A stretch of 64,000 nt of DNA from Verrucomicrobiota bacterium (GTDB lineage Bacteria; Verrucomicrobiota; Verrucomicrobiia; Chthoniobacterales; Terrimicrobiaceae): assembly GCA_026398275.1 (NCBI GenBank), contig JAPLTF010000020.1, positions 1 through 64,000 of the forward strand, given 5' to 3'. Below are positions 263-10,000 of this stretch, in pieces. A model generated the notes under the pieces. The model did no database searches. It was not told the DNA's origin and saw nothing but the letters and a program-made list of their open reading frames with translations. Position 1 is the stretch's first letter, and each line of letters begins with the position of its first letter. Both the position numbers and the translations under genes were made by a program.

Positions 263-772
263 TCACGGGGCATTTTCTTTCTCCCGTTTCCAAACTGTGC
301 TGCTTCTCTTGGTGTATCGCCGCATGTCTTCCGTGGTCGTCGGATAGGCAGAGGAAAATTTCCAACTTCCGTCTCGAAGCCCGTTGAGCCAGATGATGTA
401 GCTGTATTCCCAAGCCAGAACGAGATATTTTGGCGGTTGCCATTGTCCGGAGTCGTTGGGCACTTGGCGGCACTCGGTGTCGGGAACTCGGCCCTCAAGG
501 ATTTCTCTGATCCACGGCATTCGCTCGATGCGGGCGAAAGACACCTCCGTCTTGGAATATGCCCGCCGTGCCCGATCCGGGGAGGTTTTGAATGCATGAT
601 CATACCGGTCGGCAAAGAAAACCACTTCCTCGCCATGCCATGTCTGGACGGATCCCCGGATTCCCTTGATCGAAAACATTTTGGCGTAAACCTTCCGCCC
701 CATGTCAAATGCCTCTTCCGGCGAGAGGTCATCGAGCGGAAGCAAAAGGGAGTTGAGATCGGTGGGCGACAT
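263..772 (-). CDS. Hypothetical protein, possible RelE/BECR-fold nuclease
   Basis: This is a 169-residue protein that I cannot assign to a named family with certainty. The central part (HGEEVVFFADRYDHAF) and the C-terminal part (YLVLAWEYSYIIWL followed by WKFSSAYPTT) have the layout of small BECR/RelE-like nucleases, where a His-containing strand is followed by an arginine helix and a strand ending in T/S-A-Y/F-P. It starts 13 bp after the DUF3800 gene and is the last complete gene of the minus-strand defence-like island, so a role as an effector is possible. The fold assignment is inference from pattern only; a structure prediction could overturn it. Confidence 0.5.
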   Translation of the reverse strand: MSPTDLNSLLLPLDDLSPEEAFDMGRKVYAKMFSIKGIRGSVQTWHGEEVVFFADRYDHAFKTSPDRARRAYSKTEVSFARIERMPWIREILEGRVPDTECRQVPNDSGQWQPPKYLVLAWEYSYIIWLNGLRDGSWKFSSAYPTTTEDMRRYTKRSSTVWKREKENAP

Positions 773-785
773 GGTTGCAGTTCGC

Positions 786-1466
786 TCACAGATTGATCCG
801 GAAGATGTTGAGTTTCGACGGTCGCGGGGATGCGGATGGCAGGATCAGTCGAACACCGCTTTTGGCTTCGAGATAGCGGACAATCTCGCCTTTGGCAGAG
901 GTTGGAGGCTGGTTGCACCATGCTGCGGTGACACAACCGGTCAGGAGATCGGCCAATTGAGCGAGGGGGGACTGGAAGGAATCGTTGACCGTGAGGTCCA
1001 AGATGGATGCGCCAAATGGCATGCCGTTCTTGAGGACGCGCTTCAATTCTCCGAAGCGATCGGAACCCTTGTTTGTCTTGAAATCCAGAAGCACCAGATA
1101 CCGGTGGGGCGACTCCATCCACTTGACCAGCATCTCGTAGTAAAATTTGTAGAATCCCAACTCGTGATCACCGTCATTGTGGGCCGAATGATCGAGTTTG
1201 GATTTTTCAACCAGGATGATCCGGAACCTGAGAAAATCGTTTGTCAGGAAAAAATCAATCAGCCGCTTGTAGGATTCTAGCTTCAAGGCGCTGACTTTTG
1301 TCCATTTGATTTCTCCGGTCAGACCGACCTCCCGGCGAAGTTGCTGCAAGGCCTTGGTAAGACGGTCTTTTTCAGAACGGGCAACCCAGAGACCACCAAT
1401 ACCCATGAATGGACCGCTCACAGGCCCGTCGTGCCGGCTTTCGTCTGTATAGATGACGTAGTCCAT
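786..1466 (-). CDS. DUF3800 domain protein
   Basis: A 226-residue protein that opens with the DUF3800 signature YTDES (acidic pair D8-E9), followed by a G-rich strand (GPFMGIGGLWV), a middle acidic segment (VLLDFKTNKGSDR) and the conserved C-terminal LAQLADLLTGCV helix. The family has an RNase-H-like organisation of acidic residues and occurs often beside phage, restriction and defence genes; its biochemical activity is not established. It ends the run that begins with the helicase at 10.5 kb and starts only 3 bp after the methyltransferase stop, so the two are probably cotranscribed. Length is normal for the family. Confidence 0.8.
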   Translation of the reverse strand: MDYVIYTDESRHDGPVSGPFMGIGGLWVARSEKDRLTKALQQLRREVGLTGEIKWTKVSALKLESYKRLIDFFLTNDFLRFRIILVEKSKLDHSAHNDGDHELGFYKFYYEMLVKWMESPHRYLVLLDFKTNKGSDRFGELKRVLKNGMPFGASILDLTVNDSFQSPLAQLADLLTGCVTAAWCNQPPTSAKGEIVRYLEAKSGVRLILPSASPRPSKLNIFRINL

Positions 1467-1469
1467 GAA

Positions 1470-4433
1470 CTAAAGTCCCAGTCCCTTCTTCCGTGCCAGA
1501 ACGCCATCGACCCAGCGTTTTTCTGAGGTGCCGGTCGGGTAGAGGGCGCTGAGGGCTTGGGACAATTTCCAGAATCCGGATTCCTGGCCGACGCCGTCAT
1601 CGACGAGGAATCGACGCAGGGCCTCGCCACGTCCGGTGGCGAAGAGGATCATGGATTGGTGGACGCGGTCGAGGATCGTTTCGCCACGTTTGGTGACGGT
1701 CTTTTCTTCCCAGACTTGCTCCGCGACGCCGGGTTGAGTGAGTTCCGCGAAGAGGTCGAGTTGGTGTTTCGCCTTCTTGCGCTTGGCGGGCTCTGGGGCT
1801 GACGCCTGATCCTTGCCGAAAAGAAAGCCCGTGCGCTCGGAGACCGGGAGGAGGCGGGCTTGGTCGCCCTTGATTTCCACGAGGGATTTCAAGTCCTCCA
1901 AATGCGCCCCGAGTCCTTGCGCGATCTTCCGGGCGGCATCGTATTCCAGCGAAAATCCGGACGGGGCCTTGCCTTTGGGCGTTTCCTCCTCTTCGTCTTC
2001 CTCCGTGTTCCCGGCGTTTTCAGTAGTTGATCCGCCGGAGAGCGTCCACAGCCACATGGCCGTGAGGCGGGCATCTGGTTCATAGCCGGAGAGGTCTGCG
2101 TCAAAAATGATTGTCGAGAGCGCCTCACGCGACACGGCAGCCCAGACATGTTCAAGATATTCTTTTAGTAAAACGACTTCTCCGCTGGCCTTTTCTACAC
2201 GTTCGTAGCGGGAAAATATTTCGAGCGCCGGGCCGAGACAGGCGAAAATGGCATCCGCACCGACAACGCCTTCTTCGGCCAGACGCGGCATCCATTCGTG
2301 AATGCGGATGGGCAACGCTTGCAGCACGTCACGCCAATCACCGATGTCATCCGGGCGCACCGATCCGTCGAACTTTTCGCGCGGGCGGCACACAATGTGA
2401 ATGGAAGACGCCAAAACGGCTGAAGCTTGGGCACGAAGCCGACTCGCGTTCTCTGTGTCAATCGGCCACGAGGCGGTGATTATCCAACCGGCGTCAATCA
2501 TGGCTTGAAGTTGTGCCTCCCAACCCGCCGTTGATTTGTGGGCAAAGACCAAGACACCGATGCCTGAGGGCTGCAAGCTCCGCCTACCGTGACTCATCAC
2601 TTCACGCATCGTCTTCTCGAAGTATGCAGCATCCTTTCCTTTTACCTCATCAACGATACATTCCTCTGCTTTGGGTGTGAGCTCTGTGCGGAAAAGAACC
2701 TCGTGCTGCCCCAAGAGGGCGCGTTTCAACCACACATAAAATAGGTCAGAAAGGTCGGCATAGGGCACCGCATCGTAGTAAGGTGGATCAGTAAAAAAGA
2801 CTTGAGCTGAATCGTCCGGCAGGGAAAGTTTACTGGCGTCCTGTTGTTCCGCGTGTCCGGGTAACAGGCCAACTTGTTTCTCAAGGATATCAGCCATTTT
2901 TTCCAAGTAGTTGATCCATGATCCCCTGCCTTCACCAGTAGGAACACCCTCTGCGAAATCCCAACACATCGAGATTGCTTGTCTGCCAAACACATGTTGA
3001 ATTGTTGGGATATTGGGTTCCCATGCTCCTAAGGTTGTTGCTAAGTCCACGAGTTTGCTCAAATTCAGAGCGAGAACTGTTTGCACCGCCACCGCGAAAT
3101 CGGAACTCAATTCATTCGCTAGTTTACTTCCTGCGTCTCTGATCAAACGAGCCAAAGCGTCAAGGGCAACGAGTTGACGGGGTGAGAAAACGCTTCCCCA
3201 ATCTTCCATGCCGTAAAGTTGCACGCGAAATCCTAGAGCGCCTTTCGGCGGCATCGGCTCTCTAGGCAAAGCGCTAAGTTGACCATATGTTTTGCCAAGC
3301 AGGGTTGTAAATCTCTCCTGTGCTTCAGAGATCGCCCGGAAGTCGTTATCATTTGGCAGGCGGTAGAAACGGCCCGTTTGTCCATCACGTGTGGTCGCAA
3401 CGGTAAATAATCGCGCTGTTTTGATTCCACCTTTTGAGTGCCGGAGTTGCTTCCTCACGGACGCAACCGGCGTAGTAAACCCACATACTGGGCAAATGGC
3501 AGATCCACGCTTGACCGTCGGCTCCCCCAAATCTGACGGGGAAGGATTTTGCACTATCTCAAAATCCACACTTTTCGATTTATGATTTGCTATCAGACGA
3601 AAACCGACATTGCGCGTTGATTTCTTCGTAAGCCAAAACGAACGAATCAGCGGGACCTCTGCTCCACAATTTGGTCCTTCGCACTGGATAGTTCTTGCCC
3701 ACAGATAAGCTATAGGGATTCCTCCGTCGGGGTCCTTTGGGTAAAACTGCGCCAGTTCACGGTGTGCTTCGCGTTGAATCCACCGCCCCCACCTGCGAAC
3801 TTCCTCCGAAAGGCGACTCCCAAACCTTGGAATGTATTCGAGTGCTACTTTGTTGAGTAGCACTGCAACCGGGTTGATGTCGCTGGCAAACGCGTCGCAG
3901 CCGACGCGAACAGCTTCAACTGGAATCGATCCGCCCCCGGCAAAAGGATCTACAACCAGAGGCCTAGTTCCTTCAGCACCGCCCAGTGCGACATGAGCTG
4001 CCTCGGACAGCGCACGAGTGGTGGTCAGAAAATCAGGCAATGCTCCGCTTTCCCACCTTGAGAAATCGGCAATGAAGTCCAGCAGTGCACCCCTTAACTG
4101 TTCTGGATCCTCCAGCAGGGATGGGTTTTGTCGAAACTTTTCAAAACGTTCCCGGCTTTTCGGACTAAGCAGTGCCTGCCGCTCATGTGAAATCCAACAG
4201 AGCATTTCTTGACGGGCTCTGGCTCGGAACGAATTGGGACAAAGCTCGTCTACGGGGTCCGGCCATAGTGCGGCGCACATCACAGCGCGGCAGGCAGCTA
4301 GAGGACGCCTTGCCCACCACAAATGCATCTGCTTAAGGTGACCGGGGACTCTCTTTTTTTCCCAGCGCGAGTATTCCGAGATCCTGCGGATGGGTAGGTC
4401 AACTTCTATTAGGCGTTTTGGGTATGTGGTCAT
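1470..4433 (-). CDS. DUF1156 DNA methyltransferase
   Basis: A 987-residue protein of the DUF1156 (COG1743-type) adenine-specific DNA methylase group. The N-terminal DUF1156 domain is clear (residues 6-50, including HLWWARRPLAACRA). The SAM-binding motif is DPFAGGG at 162-168, a split zinc-ribbon uses C251, C256, C314 and C317, and the catalytic motif DPPYY is at 549-553. The C-terminal third has a Glu-rich linker and a Lys-rich segment. The start codon overlaps the stop of the SIR2-like gene by 4 bp (ATGA-type coupling). Methylases of this class occur next to large helicases in defence islands, recalling class 1 DISARM, but the DISARM core genes drmA, drmB and drmC are not in this window. The methylation target is unknown. 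Confidence 0.85.
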   Translation of the reverse strand: MTTYPKRLIEVDLPIRRISEYSRWEKKRVPGHLKQMHLWWARRPLAACRAVMCAALWPDPVDELCPNSFRARARQEMLCWISHERQALLSPKSRERFEKFRQNPSLLEDPEQLRGALLDFIADFSRWESGALPDFLTTTRALSEAAHVALGGAEGTRPLVVDPFAGGGSIPVEAVRVGCDAFASDINPVAVLLNKVALEYIPRFGSRLSEEVRRWGRWIQREAHRELAQFYPKDPDGGIPIAYLWARTIQCEGPNCGAEVPLIRSFWLTKKSTRNVGFRLIANHKSKSVDFEIVQNPSPSDLGEPTVKRGSAICPVCGFTTPVASVRKQLRHSKGGIKTARLFTVATTRDGQTGRFYRLPNDNDFRAISEAQERFTTLLGKTYGQLSALPREPMPPKGALGFRVQLYGMEDWGSVFSPRQLVALDALARLIRDAGSKLANELSSDFAVAVQTVLALNLSKLVDLATTLGAWEPNIPTIQHVFGRQAISMCWDFAEGVPTGEGRGSWINYLEKMADILEKQVGLLPGHAEQQDASKLSLPDDSAQVFFTDPPYYDAVPYADLSDLFYVWLKRALLGQHEVLFRTELTPKAEECIVDEVKGKDAAYFEKTMREVMSHGRRSLQPSGIGVLVFAHKSTAGWEAQLQAMIDAGWIITASWPIDTENASRLRAQASAVLASSIHIVCRPREKFDGSVRPDDIGDWRDVLQALPIRIHEWMPRLAEEGVVGADAIFACLGPALEIFSRYERVEKASGEVVLLKEYLEHVWAAVSREALSTIIFDADLSGYEPDARLTAMWLWTLSGGSTTENAGNTEEDEEEETPKGKAPSGFSLEYDAARKIAQGLGAHLEDLKSLVEIKGDQARLLPVSERTGFLFGKDQASAPEPAKRKKAKHQLDLFAELTQPGVAEQVWEEKTVTKRGETILDRVHQSMILFATGRGEALRRFLVDDGVGQESGFWKLSQALSALYPTGTSEKRWVDGVLARKKGLGL

Positions 4434-5533
4434 GCTAACGGTGCAAATACAGTATCAAAAAGTTTGTCCCAATCGATTTCACTCCCAATGCGCTTTGGCG
4501 TGGTATGGATCCGTCCCTCATTCTCCCATGCCTCGATCTTGCCCAGAATCGCGCCACGAGCACGTTCCGCATCGAATGGTTTGGGATCAAACACGAATAA
4601 ATGATGTTCCATACTGCTAGACATCCAATTCGCGATGAGCGAATTGATGCCCTTGTCAGCAAACCCATATCCACAGACCGCTAAACGGTCTGCACATTGC
4701 AAAGTATTGTGAAACTCACCTAGCAATTGGAGGAAGACGGGGGAACTGTATTGGAGAATCTTATTGAATGTTCCGGCCAGGATCAGTGGAGTTTCGTCCA
4801 TCTGCTCAAATACACGGTTTTTCCCCATTTCTACGCCGATGAATTCGTAAATCCAAGGGTTGTCCGCATTGCGAGCGCGTGTGGGGCGGTGTCGCCACCA
4901 ATTGATAGAGCCATGTAGTTTGAGAAGAGCGACCGCGCTTGTTTCAAACCCCTGCCGGTTGAAATCGAACCGTCTCCCATGATCCACTCCGTCGATTGGG
5001 GCAAATCCATCATAAAAAACGAGTCCGGTTTTTTTCAGATATTTTTCCAGCAGGAGGTCGTGGTTCAGGCTGAAGAAACGAACCTTTTTCGAGGAATGGC
5101 TTTCGAGCGCTGAGTCGAGTGCAATAAATGCCTTGGCTGCTTGTTCATCACTCGAACTCAGTTCGCCGCAGACCACGTGCAAGATAGAAATAATTATTTC
5201 CTCGCAAGCCTTTTGGATTATTTTTGGTGCCAACTCCGTCTTGGAGTTGAGGTCAGCAATCAATGGGATAAGGCCAGGGTTTTCGTATTCGCGATGGACG
5301 TGATCACGCACCTGAGTGGCAAGATAGAGCCAATCTTCGTAGTTCGATGCAGCACCATTCCGGTCCTCATCACATAGGCCCTTGAGCGCCTTGAACAGTG
5401 GTTCGCGCGGGGTGCCGATGAAATGTGATGCGGCTTGCTCCGAAAGTTGATCCACGCTAGGGAGGTCGCCAGCGCAAGAGACACCTGAGCCAATCAGGAT
5501 GGGAATCATTTTAATGTCTGCTGGGATCGCCAT
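4430..5533 (-). CDS. SIR2-like domain protein
   Basis: A 367-residue protein with SIR2-like features: the nucleotide-binding loop GSGVS at residues 15-19, the paired motif N157-H158-D159 in FFSLNHDLLLEKYL, LHGSINWW at 206-213, and a late LAVCGYGFADKGIN segment, the usual GxxxxD-xxIN block of bacterial SIR2 proteins. Bacterial members of this group often deplete NAD during phage infection (family knowledge); this protein carries the Asn and Asp expected for NADase activity but has no extra sensor domain I recognise. An internal start at Met9 (5509) is also possible. Its stop overlaps the DUF1156 methylase start, which suggests the two products act together. Confidence 0.8.
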   Translation of the reverse strand: MAIPADIKMIPILIGSGVSCAGDLPSVDQLSEQAASHFIGTPREPLFKALKGLCDEDRNGAASNYEDWLYLATQVRDHVHREYENPGLIPLIADLNSKTELAPKIIQKACEEIIISILHVVCGELSSSDEQAAKAFIALDSALESHSSKKVRFFSLNHDLLLEKYLKKTGLVFYDGFAPIDGVDHGRRFDFNRQGFETSAVALLKLHGSINWWRHRPTRARNADNPWIYEFIGVEMGKNRVFEQMDETPLILAGTFNKILQYSSPVFLQLLGEFHNTLQCADRLAVCGYGFADKGINSLIANWMSSSMEHHLFVFDPKPFDAERARGAILGKIEAWENEGRIHTTPKRIGSEIDWDKLFDTVFAPLA

Positions 5534-5553: not shown

Positions 5554-5714
5554 TTAATCACTGGCATCGTCGTCGTCCGGCTCCTCGTTGACTGGCACGA
5601 CGCCGAACGCATCGTCAATGTGCCATGGGCTATCCACGCATAGCCCCGCTGATAGTCGGGAACTTGAAAAACCTTTCCTTCAAAGGTTTTCTGGATGGAG
5701 AAGACGTTATTCAC
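5554..5714 (-). pseudogene. DUF262 (GmrS-type) N-terminal remnant
   Basis: From a GTG at 5714 the minus strand reads 27 codons containing VFSIQKTFEG and VFQVPDYQRGYAW, the very recognisable N-terminus of DUF262 proteins (the nucleotide-dependent ParB-like domain of GmrSD-type defence nucleases). After the Trp the frame loses similarity. A different frame then gives WHIDDAFGVVPVN followed by an acidic tail and a TAA at 5554, which looks like a natural protein end. The simplest reading is a large internal deletion that joined the start and end of a DUF262 gene out of frame. The GTG overlaps the stop of the SecB-like gene, so the ancestral gene belonged to the same operon. Confidence 0.6.
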
Positions 5715-6156
5715 CGAGCGACTTCTGGTTCTCGACCTGGAGAGGCTTATCTTTTGCCGGATAAAACGAAACCGACGGCAAAATCGCAGGCATGTAGGGA
5801 CCTTGGGCCGAAACAGAACGGATGATCTCGCGAGCCGCGCCGTAGAGCATCGAGGCTCCATTCGCTCTCAGGAAAAGTTCCCGTTTTTCCTCCGGGACGA
5901 GTGAACTGACCGAAAGGTAACCAACGAGTTCCAATGAGAACGAGTAGGGCTGGTCATCCGCTGCGAGCTGCTGGACGCGCAGAGTCATGATCCATTCGGG
6001 CTCGCTTTTGGGGTCCTCCGATTTCCGTAGCTCCGGAAAAATGCGGAGGTTGCCTCCCTCCAAGGCACTGCTCTCACCAGCCTTGAAAGTCTTGTTTACG
6101 GAAAACGTCAGTTCCGTGACGTAGTAGTAGTGGAGATCAAGCGGCGACGGCTTCAT
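5707..6156 (-). CDS. SecB-like chaperone of a toxin-antitoxin-chaperone module
   Basis: A 149-residue protein resembling SecB. The C-terminal half has NGASMLYGAAREIIRSVS followed by GPYMPAILPSVSF, matching the SecB pattern of a LYGxARE helix, a G-P-loop and L-P-x-V-x-F. The N-terminal half is a run of beta strands as in SecB. I start it at Met (6156) because the upstream in-frame extension reads through the antitoxin gene; this still overlaps the antitoxin end by 20 bp. Solitary SecB-like proteins encoded after a toxin and antitoxin act as dedicated chaperones that fold the antitoxin (for example Rv1957 with HigBA1, and CmdTAC in phage defence). Gene order and overlap fit that role well. Confidence 0.8.
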   Translation of the reverse strand: MKPSPLDLHYYYVTELTFSVNKTFKAGESSALEGGNLRIFPELRKSEDPKSEPEWIMTLRVQQLAADDQPYSFSLELVGYLSVSSLVPEEKRELFLRANGASMLYGAAREIIRSVSAQGPYMPAILPSVSFYPAKDKPLQVENQKSLGE

Positions 6157-6670
6157 CGGAGTAGTCCACTGCGGCAGGAGTTGAGAAGTTGTAAGCGGTG
6201 AAATCCGCGCGGAGCGCCTGGAACCGGGCAATCGGCTGGAACCGCAGCTTGGGATAGCTCAATGAATTCAGGTAGTTGGCATCGATCCGGCCATCCCACA
6301 AACTGTGGAGAAGGATATTCATCGAGCGGGACGGACGCTCCCGGCCAGACTCCCATCGGGTCCATGTTTTCTCCCCGAGCTGGAGCAGGGCGGAGATATT
6401 TTTCTGCGTCAGCCCGAGGTGCTGGCGTAATTCGCGAATCTGATCGGGGGCGAGAAGGCCCATATAGCGGGCTTTGGTTTCCTCCAATTCGGCCTTCACA
6501 TCACCAGGGATGATGAGTTCGCCAGAGGGATTCTTCCATGCGTCGATTTCCACTTCGATGGTTTCGGAGAATCCGGTGCCATCGAGATTGGGAATTCGGA
6601 CAGGGTAAATTGTGGTCACTGCAATCCATCCGGGAGCCGCCGGTTGTTTTTGCGTTCGGATCTTTTTCAT
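6137..6670 (-). CDS. HTH antitoxin with C-terminal extension (TAC module)
   Basis: A 177-residue protein. Residues 1-70 form a beta-rich part without zinc-ligand cysteines. Residues 77-120 are a helix-turn-helix of the MqsA/HigA-2 type, with RELRQHLGLTQKNISALLQL followed by GEKTWTRWESGRERPSR. Residues about 135-177 are an extra aromatic-rich tail (YPKLRFQPIARFQ, FTAYNFSTP). In known TAC systems the antitoxin tail is a chaperone-addiction region that keeps the antitoxin unstable until the SecB-like partner binds; the position and composition of this tail fit, but this is inference. It overlaps the toxin stop by 4 bp and probably represses the operon through its HTH. Confidence 0.75.
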   Translation of the reverse strand: MKKIRTQKQPAAPGWIAVTTIYPVRIPNLDGTGFSETIEVEIDAWKNPSGELIIPGDVKAELEETKARYMGLLAPDQIRELRQHLGLTQKNISALLQLGEKTWTRWESGRERPSRSMNILLHSLWDGRIDANYLNSLSYPKLRFQPIARFQALRADFTAYNFSTPAAVDYSDEAVAA

Positions 6671-7026
6671 AACGATTCTTTGCCTTTGCGTGGTGTGTGG
6701 CTTGAGTAGATGAGGATGATTTTGCCGTCAGGAAAGAGGTTGATCTTTCCGTAGAGTTGGACGGCACGGTGATGAAACCAAAAGGCGTAGGTCTCGCCGG
6801 GTTCATCCATCCCCAGGATGTGTTTTCCAATCACATCGGGCTTTTCGAGAGCGGCTGACATGGCCCCGAAGCGCACGTAATCCCATGCGTCATCAGGGAA
6901 AGTTGCTTCCCAGTCGAGATCCGACTGGCCGGTGGTATCGATAAGTTGGCGATCCCCACTGCGAAGGATCTTCGATACCGCATCGCACCAAGTCCGGGGA
7001 ATTGGGATATGATCATCACTTGCCAT
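6667..7026 (-). CDS. Putative toxin of TAC module (RelE/BECR-like)
   Basis: A 119-residue protein directly before, and overlapping, the HTH antitoxin. The C-terminal half contains GETYAFWFHHRAVQLYGKIN and then GKIILIYSSHTPRKG, a strand-strand arrangement ending in an I-x-S-S-H motif typical of small ribonuclease toxins with the RelE/BECR fold. The N-terminal half is acidic and helical. The genetic position (toxin, antitoxin, SecB-like chaperone) is the strongest evidence. It starts 24 bp after the helicase stop, so it sits inside the island transcription unit. The enzymatic target is unknown. Confidence 0.65.
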   Translation of the reverse strand: MASDDHIPIPRTWCDAVSKILRSGDRQLIDTTGQSDLDWEATFPDDAWDYVRFGAMSAALEKPDVIGKHILGMDEPGETYAFWFHHRAVQLYGKINLFPDGKIILIYSSHTPRKGKESL

Positions 7027-7050
7027 AACGTATCAATTGATACCAACCCG

Positions 7051-10000
7051 TCAAGCGGGTTTTTCTCCGTATGGGGTTTCGTCCTCTTTAATACGAGGAT
7101 TGCGTTGATCCTCCAGCTTGAGCCGGTAGTGCTCGATCTTCACGATTGGCTGCCAATGCAGCCGCGCAGGGTCGCGAAGGATGTTGAGAGAGGGGTTCGG
7201 AGTGGCGCAGTGGAAGACGATGTAGAGCCAGTAGTCCTGCTTGAGACGCTCCGCTGTCTTGAATTCATTGGTGGTCAGGGCCACCTCGCCAATGTCGGCA
7301 CGGCCTTTGACTTCAACAAATCGGACGGAGGGCGCGGCATTTGGTTCGGCTGGATCAGCCTTGCGAGCAACCAGATCGAAGCCTCTGTTATCCGATTCGA
7401 CACTCTCAACGGTAAATCCCTCCGATTCGAGTGCCTTCGTTGCGATCTCGACCGCAGTCCGTTCCACTTCCTCATCACGCCGCATGGCACGTCCGGTGGG
7501 GGTATCGCGGTCCGGGTGCGGCAGAACCCAAGCGCGGCCCACATGGCGGATGTCCGTCACGGCACATTCCCGTTGGCGGGCGAGTTCGCTTCGACGGAGT
7601 TCCAGCCGGCGGTGGATTTCTTCGATCCGGTTCTCCGCCTGCTTAATCCGGCCCTCAAGACCGGACTCCTCGGAGCCGCTCTCACGCTGGGTGACGAGTT
7701 CGGCGAGGGTGCAGTTTTCGCGATTCAGAATCGTGTTGAGGCTGGTCTCGACGTGGCTCTCGACAATCCGCGTTTCGCGGAGGCGTTCTTTGCGGACATC
7801 TTCGAGAAAAGGCGTGAGGCTTCGCTCCAAGAGAATCGATTGGAGTTGGTCTTTTTGCGGGAGATGGGATCCGTCGGGCACCTGAACGGGATTTTCGGCG
7901 GGAACGATCTCATGGAAAATCGTGGGTGGGTGGATTGAGACGGTGCCCTCGATCTCAGTTTGAACGGCAAAAATGCGGCGGTTGAGGACATTCGCGCACC
8001 CGTCACGGATCGTCGCCGTGAAGACATCCAACTGGGCCGGGGTTTGGCGGTGGAGATCGTAGAAGACTGCTCCCCGTTCGAGGGCAGAGATCGTCTCCGA
8101 CTCGATTTCTGCGCGGATGGACTCGAAAAGCGGGTGGCCCGGAGTCACCCACTCGGAGGATGCGTCCTTTTTCAGCAGTTCCTTGTCGAAAATGACATCA
8201 AGGTATTCTCCCCCGAGCCGACCGAACCGGGGTTCCAATTGCTCTCCGCGAGTCAGGAGATGGCGGGGAATCCGACCGACGCGGTAAACATGGGAACGTC
8301 CGCGGCTGTTTGTCAGTTTGAGGCCCACATGCTCGGCAGCTTCCACAAAGAAATCCTCGATCACCTCGGGAACGAGCCGACGTTCTTTTGCCTCGGCTGT
8401 TTTGCCGATGATTGCGGAGAGGTTGAGTTCGCGCTTGGCAAGGCCCTCCAGCGTGGAATTGGTGATTTCTGAAAACCGGCGAATATCGATGTCGGTGACG
8501 ATGCGATCCAAGATGACCTGCTCGGTCTGGTTGCGGGCATACATGTCGCGCAGCATCCGCTCCAGGAGGTTCGAGGGGAACACATCACCCAGGACGTTGA
8601 ATATTTTCCCTGTCCGACCGGGATCGAGGTCGTCCTCAATGGCGGCAATGCGGTCAAAAAGCTTTTGAAGGACGCGTCCCTCCGCCGTGTTGGTCGCCAC
8701 AAAGTTGAATATGAGACAGTCCTTTTCCTGGCCATACCGGTGGATGCGGCCCATGCGTTGCTCCAGACGCATCGGATTCCACGGGATATCGTAGTTCACC
8801 ATCAACCAGCAGAACTGAAGGTTGATTCCTTCACCGGCAGCCTCGGTAGCCACCATGACCTGGCAGGATTCCTTGAACTCGCGCTCCGCGAAAATCCGAC
8901 TTCCGGGAGTATCCCGGTCACCGATCTTCATGCCTCCGTGAATGGTCGTGAGCGACAGCCCCCATTCCCGGAGCTTTCCAAGAGGGCGGCCATCGCGTCC
9001 GTCGCCTGCAAGGTAATCGAGCGTGTCCTTGTGCTCGGTGAAAATGAGGAGTTTCATTTTCGAGTCGGCAAAAATGCCGTGCTCGGTCAGAAGCTCCTTC
9101 AGAGAGGTCAACTTTGTCTCGGTGGATTTGGTTTCCAGTATCCTGGCTTGGTCGATCAACTTGCCCAACTCCTGAACCTCCGCCTTGAGGATAGCCGGGT
9201 CCGGGTTCAGAACGACTTCTTCCAATTGATCGATGATGGCCTGCTGCTGTTCTTCATCAAGATCATCGAAGCCCTCGGGTATGCGCCGGTTGATTTGATC
9301 ACGCCGGTAGCCGTCGGGGTCGGCGAGAATTTTTTCACGCCGGTCTTTCATTCGCTCCAGGGTGCGCCTTGCTGCGTAGAGGCTGGAGGCAAAACGCCGT
9401 TGAAGCATGGCCATCGTGAAGCCGACTGCCCGTGCCTGAGGTGAGTTTGCCTCGGCTGCACGGATCGACTGGTCTTGCACGAATCGGGTCAGGGCGTCGT
9501 AGAATTCCAGTTCGTCATCGGCGATCTCAAACTTTGCTGTTTTGACAATCCGTTTGGTGAAGAGGGATTTGACAAGGCCGGTATCGGGATCTGGAAACGA
9601 TACCAGCGCCTCTTTGACACGTCGCAGGTAGAATGGCGCATCACGGTTGACCATGGCCTGCTCCAAGCTGCTCACGTCACCGTAAACATCACGGTCGAGG
9701 AGTTTGAGAAACAGGGCGAAATTTTCCGGGTCGCCCTTGTGAGGGGTCGCCGTCATGAGCAAGAGATGATCCGTCATCTCCGACAGGTCTTTGCCCAGCT
9801 TGTAGGCAAGCGTCTCATGGTCTGAGCTGTATGCGCTCATTTTGTGGGCTTCGTCCACAATCACGAGATCCCAACGACTGCGGAGCAGGCTGTCGCGGGC
9901 GTCTTCGACGCGGGAAACCCACGAGACGGAGGCGATCACCTGATCATGCTCCTGCCAGGGGTTGGTGCCGTAATTCGCTCGCAGGATGTCCGAGCGAATC

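Follow-up and report, generated by a model that had tools for sequence, protein, structure and literature searches.

The window, a 64,000-nucleotide stretch comprising the first 64 kb of its contig in a 4.66-Mb draft genome, contained three minus-strand open reading frames (5707–7026) encoding a predicted toxin (T), then a predicted antitoxin (A) and then a SecB-like chaperone (C). The triad was located between an HmaA-type gene, 24 nt upstream, and a SIR2–HmaB pair. The features of the locus were as follows.

1470–4433, minus strand: HmaB-type DUF1156 DNA methyltransferase (PDLC00661, 382 bits)
4430–5533, minus strand: SIR2-like protein, between C and HmaB
5583–5690 (approximate), minus strand: GmrSD_N/DUF262 remnant, between C and SIR2
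5707–6156, minus strand: chaperone gene C, SecB-like, 149 aa from the ATG at 6156 (ORF 5707–6231)
6137–6670, minus strand: antitoxin gene A, 177 aa, MqsA-type HTH (about residues 73–127), tail ending in DEAVAA
6667–7026, minus strand: toxin gene T, 119 aa, predicted MqsR-like BECR fold, conserved Y92, K94, S108 and H110
7030–7043, no strand assigned: putative operator GTATCAATTGATAC, a perfect 14-bp palindrome 3 nt before the T start codon
7051–10719, minus strand: HmaA-type SNF2 helicase with NOV_C domain (PDLC00659, 612 bits), the upstream gene of the host operon

T and A overlapped by 4 nt, and A and C by 20 nt when counted from the ATG at 6156. Since homologues of C begin with MK-SPL, this ATG (MKPSPLDL...) is probably the start of C, and the TTG start of the ORF reaching 6231 probably lies too far upstream. 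A sequence-only reading of the window had described the three overlapping genes as a toxin–antitoxin–chaperone (TAC) triad within a defence island. Homologues of T, A and C (25–60% identity) occurred in the same order in most PVC-group loci, so the triad is not a chance arrangement, and the TAC operon order (toxin, HTH antitoxin, chaperone) was found in the window as in its relatives. The position in a defence island was likewise borne out by the flanks: HmaA, SIR2, HmaB and two PADLOC candidate families.

Hma systems are type-1 DUF499-centred BREX-related systems (PMC8565338, PMC12839542), of which HmaA and HmaB were matched in the host operon. HmaC was found downstream in the sister loci L016, L023 and L025, and was not seen in the window, since window position 1 is where the contig starts. 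Directly after HmaB lay a DUF3800 protein and its partner (263–1466, minus strand; PADLOC candidates PDC-M04A/B), and HmaC would fall past this pair, beyond the contig end. The GmrSD_N/DUF262 remnant NNVFSIQKTFEGKVFQVPDYQRGYAW at 5583–5690 had lost its frame. Over 25 aa it was 68% identical to the L016 GmrSD gene, and its match to PF03235 fell below the cut-off (E 0.009).

Folds and families of the three proteins

T had no match in Pfam, NCBIfam, PADLOC or PHROGs and none by sequence in the PDB, and searches of plasmid and phage records with T gave no match. A model built from 35 homologues had a pLDDT of 93.9. Structures were ranked with VIA-align applied to Foldseek candidates, the plain Foldseek E-values being weak (best 0.08). 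The closest solved fold was MqsR (3hi2_D; Z 9.8, rmsd 2.5, 91/91 residues), followed by a next best Z of 6.3; HP0892, YafQ, YoeB, HigB/HigB2, ParE and RelE scored about 5–6. The model indicates that T likely has the same superfamily (BECR) fold as RelE, YafQ, YoeB and HigB, but RelE-like, the term used for T in the sequence-only reading, is not its best description, MqsR being well ahead of RelE, YafQ and HigB. We rejected a RelE/HigB assignment, for which there was no Pfam match (window protein and 12 homologues) and a weaker fold match than for MqsR, and also a CmdT-type ADP-ribosyltransferase, T being a 119-aa protein with a BECR-like fold.

At the sequence level, hhalign of the T profile against E. 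coli MqsR did not rise above shuffled controls, and against ten MqsR proteins it was not significant (score 11.2; column-shuffled controls up to 19.7). Membership in the MqsR sequence family was rejected on these scores. The MqsR family PF15723 did not match T in 13 homologues. A separate PF15723 search in relatives also gave no match, but it is uninformative since its controls were equally silent. T thus has an MqsR-like BECR fold by prediction but, showing no significant similarity in sequence, lies outside the MqsR sequence family. K94, S108 and H110 were invariant in the 35 homologues, and Y92 and others nearly so. The invariant Lys, Ser and His and the near-invariant Tyr fall on the final strands of the BECR sheet, and by analogy with BECR RNases Y92, K94, S108 and H110 likely form the active site.

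A scored 54.3 bits against TIGR03830 (MqsA), under the curated cut-off of 61.8, and was also below the second curated cut-off for MqsA (PF15731/TIGR03830 test; 26.6 vs 30). The best PDB matches of its HTH domain were to E. coli MqsA (3fmy, E 2e-7), with an hhalign probability of 96% over 55 columns of the E. coli MqsA HTH. The N-terminal zinc site of MqsA (two CxxC) had no counterpart, the window protein having no N-terminal cysteine and the alignment no column of conserved cysteine. Judged by sequence, A is a relative of MqsA and not a standard member. An MqsR fold for T and an MqsA HTH for A identify a matched pair by two independent routes, which supports the TAC reading.

The proposal of a SecB-like chaperone as third gene was confirmed by Pfam, family profile and model together. 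C matched Pfam SecB at 26.7 bits, just above the cut-off of 26, and a profile from 31 C homologues matched SecB chains in the PDB (E 3e-6). LYGAAREI and LPSVSF, the SecB elements noted earlier, were both present in C and well conserved among homologues. The AlphaFold2 model (pLDDT 89) had the SecB fold (Z 13.6–13.8 to SecB of H. influenzae and E. coli); the absence of this fold had been set beforehand as grounds for dismissing the triad. It also matched Rv1957, the TAC chaperone of M. tuberculosis, in complex with its addiction peptide (5mtw; Z 11.7), then two uncharacterised streptococcal proteins (Z 9.6–10.3), and all other structures at Z below 6. SecB-family proteins were present in just 19/388 genomes of the phylum sample. 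Eight of these 19 carried T, and one more (G132, L116) had A and C at a contig end. The remaining SecB genes mostly stood behind other toxin–antitoxin pairs, as read from sequence (HMM scoring covered the T–A family only), so that SecB in this sample is mostly a TAC component. These other pairs read as HigBA-like (L105, L107, L110, L117–L119), HicAB-like (L108) and CmdT-like (L104).

Operator and antitoxin tail

The palindrome GTATCAATTGATAC at 7030–7043 lay inside the 24-nt gap between HmaA and T. It was found exactly at the start of T in 25/37 distinct loci, and with no more than two mismatches in 34/37, although the proteins of those loci differ by about 40–75%. The home genome contained one copy. 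In 11/20 other T- or TAC-bearing genomes tested the palindrome also occurred once each, always at T, so that the figure of one copy per genome covers the 12 bacterial genomes in which it is present. A 16-bp form of the palindrome was found in at least 120 stretches of viral contigs. Among the viral matches listed, one alone carried T and A (L187, the same contig as L052); as the viral stretches mostly lack T and A, the palindrome by itself has no specificity in viral DNA. No operator was present at the decayed Hma copy that lacks C (L013/L023).

A TTGAC box starts 11 nt before the palindrome and a TAnnnT box 11 nt into it, which suggests that GTATCAATTGATAC is a putative operator within a promoter spacer. 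The ATG of T follows directly after the putative −10 box (window 7026–7043) and would then lie, unexplained on this reading, ahead of the expected transcript start; the internal promoter would give a leaderless transcript or one that begins inside the gene. A change of one half-site from GATA to GGTA went with a change from Arg to Tyr or Leu before a conserved PS in the HTH region of A. Antitoxins with Arg had GATA and GGTA in a ratio of 29:0, and those with Tyr or Leu in a ratio of 0:5, where the five may be one clade. This covariation supports the predicted binding of GTATCAATTGATAC by A.

The tail of A, measured from after the RWExG motif in distinct antitoxins only, was linked to the chaperone. 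Where C was present (n=31) it was 67–134 aa long in 30 antitoxins and 48 aa in one (L039), and where C was absent (n=8) it was 30–63 aa in all eight (Mann–Whitney p 4e-5, without correction for relatedness). A missed C in the eight C-less loci was not found by tblastn with all C proteins, except for a 33-codon C remnant in L042 and one weak match elsewhere. Were the tail of A protected by C, tail and chaperone would be expected to be lost together; the linkage fits chaperone addiction, and the C-terminal tail of A is a candidate chaperone-addiction region whose dependence on C the comparative evidence supports.

Antitoxins accompanied by C ended in Ala-Ala in 17/31 cases (AVAA here), vs 14/491 in a background of long ORFs rather than curated genes. 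Where A overlaps C, the conserved MK-SPL start of C limits which codons A can end with, so that Ala-Ala is partly forced, and loci overlapping by no more than 4 nt were therefore examined separately. In this subset, with three near-identical loci taken as one, Ala-Ala was found at 5/11 loci (p 8e-6). The ClpX degron of M. tuberculosis HigA1 is a C-terminal Val-Ala, which SecB-TA shields (PMC8165232). The Ala-Ala ends of A resemble a ClpX degron and may be a candidate degron, as the layout of tail and end is the same as in HigA1.

Distribution and host operons

The T–A–C order was found in about 30 distinct loci of Verrucomicrobiota and Lentisphaerae. T was present in 13/388 sampled genomes of the phylum (13/384 of the class) and, where flanks existed, was nearly always followed by A and mostly then by C. 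The named relatives were nearly all Verrucomicrobiota, Lentisphaerae or Kiritimatiellae; a match in Planctomycetales (L049) was to the HTH alone. In one IMG/VR viral contig, a complete TAC with operator (L052, 4549–5988) adjoined a gene resembling a tyrosine integrase, which indicates that the module travels on a mobile element.

Of about 30 loci with flanks, 14 had TAC embedded among defence genes or abutting them, and about half of the TAC loci had no recognised defence gene as neighbour. Sister Hma loci had the orders HmaA–GmrSD–T–A–C–HmaB–x–HmaC (L016, GmrSD full-length) and HmaA–T–A–C–x–HEC05–HmaB–...–HmaC (L025). In a third (L023, the same locus as L013), ordered HmaA–T–A–HmaB–...–HmaC, the module was apparently decayed, with a short T, no chaperone and no operator, so Hma does not require the module. 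HmaB was present in 23/388 genomes of the phylum sample and T stood between HmaA and HmaB in just two, from which it follows that most Hma operons are without the module. Type I restriction–modification (RM) loci were ordered HsdM–TAC–HsdS–helicase–DprA–HsdR (L017), HsdS–PDC-S14–TAC–HsdR (L035) and YhcG–HsdS–TAC (L033). A BREX locus (L036) was ordered BrxC-like–methylase–two small genes–TAC–PglZ–BrxL. The first of the two small genes beside TAC (L036, 8521–9439) reads like a DUF4065 (Panacea-type) antitoxin, so this operon may hold two toxin–antitoxin modules. A type ISP RM locus (L041) hosted TAC with a broken T. Other hosts were Upx (L019), HEC-07 (L048), a metallophosphatase candidate (L045), an MmeI N-terminus upstream (L030) and an HmaA C-terminal remnant (L018). 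The broken or shortened T of the embedded copies lay at 9553–9960 in L041 and 9720–9989 in L023. The near gene set matched 315 PADLOC models and the far set (>5.5 kb away) 41, in sets that differ in size and mean length and with many models redundant; defence genes also in the far set indicate that the defence islands are broad.

Proposed function and relation to known systems

We consider it probable that the triad is a type II TAC module of a new toxin/antitoxin subfamily, placed within DNA-modification defence operons and serving there as an infection alarm. Its recurrence in several unrelated anti-virus clusters suggests that it probably stops the cell once a virus has passed the main defence, and the tail–chaperone linkage and the embedding in defence operons support an antiphage role. 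In the proposed mechanism, T would be a BECR-fold RNase-like toxin of the MqsR type, bound and blocked by the N-terminal part of A, whose HTH would repress the module from GTATCAATTGATAC. The SecB-fold C would shield the C-terminal tail of A, a presumed chaperone-addiction region with a terminal ClpX-type C-degron. Upon infection, a phage structural protein would titrate C, leading to degradation of A and release of T; the freed toxin would stop translation and abort the infection, and the operator would be released at the same time. TAC would thereby act as a second line if the DNA-targeting machine, here Hma, is overrun.

Sensing of phage by the chaperone is proposed because of two precedents: CmdTAC senses the T4 capsid via CmdC (PMC11618068), and chaperone-based phage sensing has been described for HigBAC (PMC11980606). 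The fail-safe step is proposed from the embedding, by analogy with three others. DarTG2 lies within an EPEC type I RM operon (PMC12255303), a linked type I enzyme keeps the anticodon nuclease PrrC silent (PMC2610378), and MqsRAC, which blocks T2 with a rescue that needs the chaperone (PMC9519451), reportedly works together with restriction (PMC10783111).

The same observations bear on other explanations. TAC might be an ordinary addiction module that stabilises mobile defence islands and senses no phage, in keeping with the many loci without a recognised defence neighbour (about half), the viral-contig copy with a tyrosine integrase close by (L052) and the defence genes found more than 5.5 kb from the module. 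We regard this as unlikely, since TAC does not merely lie nearby but is flanked on both sides by core genes of a single operon (HmaA/HmaB, HsdM/HsdS, HsdS/HsdR, BrxX/PglZ) at short distances (downstream gaps of −3 to 35 nt in L016, L017, L025 and L036, and 80 nt in L035), and the TACs tested by experiment sense phage (PMC11618068, PMC9519451). The operator inside the operon, flanked by the TTGAC and TAnnnT boxes and upstream of SIR2/HmaB here, HsdR (L035), PglZ–BrxL (L036) and HsdS (L017), would also be expected if A and C were mainly a phage-responsive repressor of downstream defence genes, with T secondary or a fail-safe. The retention of T with its invariant residues in nearly all loci makes such a role rather improbable, and one operator per genome leaves no wider regulon.

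The activity of T could also differ from that proposed here. The BECR fold is common to RNases and ParE (PMC11980606) and the sequence similarity to MqsR is not significant, so another activity such as gyrase poisoning is conceivable. It is nevertheless quite doubtful given the invariant Lys, Ser and His and near-invariant Tyr on the last BECR strands and the wide margin by which MqsR was the best fold. As an extension of the alarm reading, the module might be a portable infection-sensing switch, in which titration of C frees the RNase toxin and also derepresses GTATCAATTGATAC, raising downstream restriction or effector genes (SIR2/HmaB, HsdR, PglZ–BrxL); we put this forward tentatively, as a possibility on the unlikely side.

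The recognition of TAC systems as a class of phage sensors is recent, and the class so far comprises three type II toxin–antitoxin families (HigBA, HicAB and MqsRA) plus CmdTAC (PMC5105189, PMC11618068). The new subfamily is most like MqsRAC/HigBAC of E. coli C496 (PMC9519451, PMC10783111, PMC11980606), with which it shares the T–A–C order, a BECR-type toxin, an HTH antitoxin with a C-terminal tail and a SecB-like chaperone. That those systems act with restriction is a further likeness. In contrast to them, T has no significant MqsR sequence relation, A lacks the zinc site, and the family has its own operator and is embedded in Hma, RM and BREX operons. HigBA1-SecB(TA) of M. tuberculosis (Rv1955–Rv1957; PMC5105189, PMC6377645, PMC8165232) shares the chaperone fold (5mtw, Z 11.7) and the layout of an addiction tail with a hydrophobic/Ala C-terminal degron, but its toxin and antitoxin belong to other families and the parts of these sources consulted describe no surrounding defence operon. 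DarTG2 in the EPEC type I RM operon (PMC12255303) and PrrC linked to its type I RM enzyme (PMC2610378, PMC3874168) share the placing of a toxin with a DNA-modification system as back-up, but have no chaperone and other toxins.

With the triad, a toxin/antitoxin subfamily absent from current libraries is added and given a diagnostic operator, and a chaperone-sensing module is placed within DNA-modification systems of several unrelated kinds (Hma, type I RM, type ISP RM and BREX). The coupling of DNA restriction to a translation-stopping back-up thereby becomes directly testable, and the arrangement suggests how an operon could notice the failure of its first line. The main text of a 2026 BREX/BR survey names no MqsR, BECR, SecB or chaperones among back-up effectors. 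A search of openly accessible main texts for SecB, toxin–antitoxin and Verrucomicrobia returned no paper that, judged by title and abstract, concerns this triad, so the priority of the new subfamily is not certain.

CmdTAC of E. coli ECOR22 (PMC11618068) shares a SecB-like third gene and the chaperone-titration trigger proposed here, but differs in that CmdT is an mRNA ADP-ribosyltransferase and CmdA is unrelated to A. One locus of our sample (L104, 1468–2806) encoded a CmdT-like toxin (GYHGTS motif), a small protein ending in ELALAA and SecB, and is a probable CmdTAC in the PVC group, its antitoxin likewise ending in LAA. Antitoxins of unrelated TAC families (HigA and HicB types; L105, L107, L108, L110, L117–L119) also ended in Ala (ALTA, AVTA, ADAA, LSA, VPA), and Ala-ending antitoxins in several TAC families suggest a general C-degron rule for TACs.
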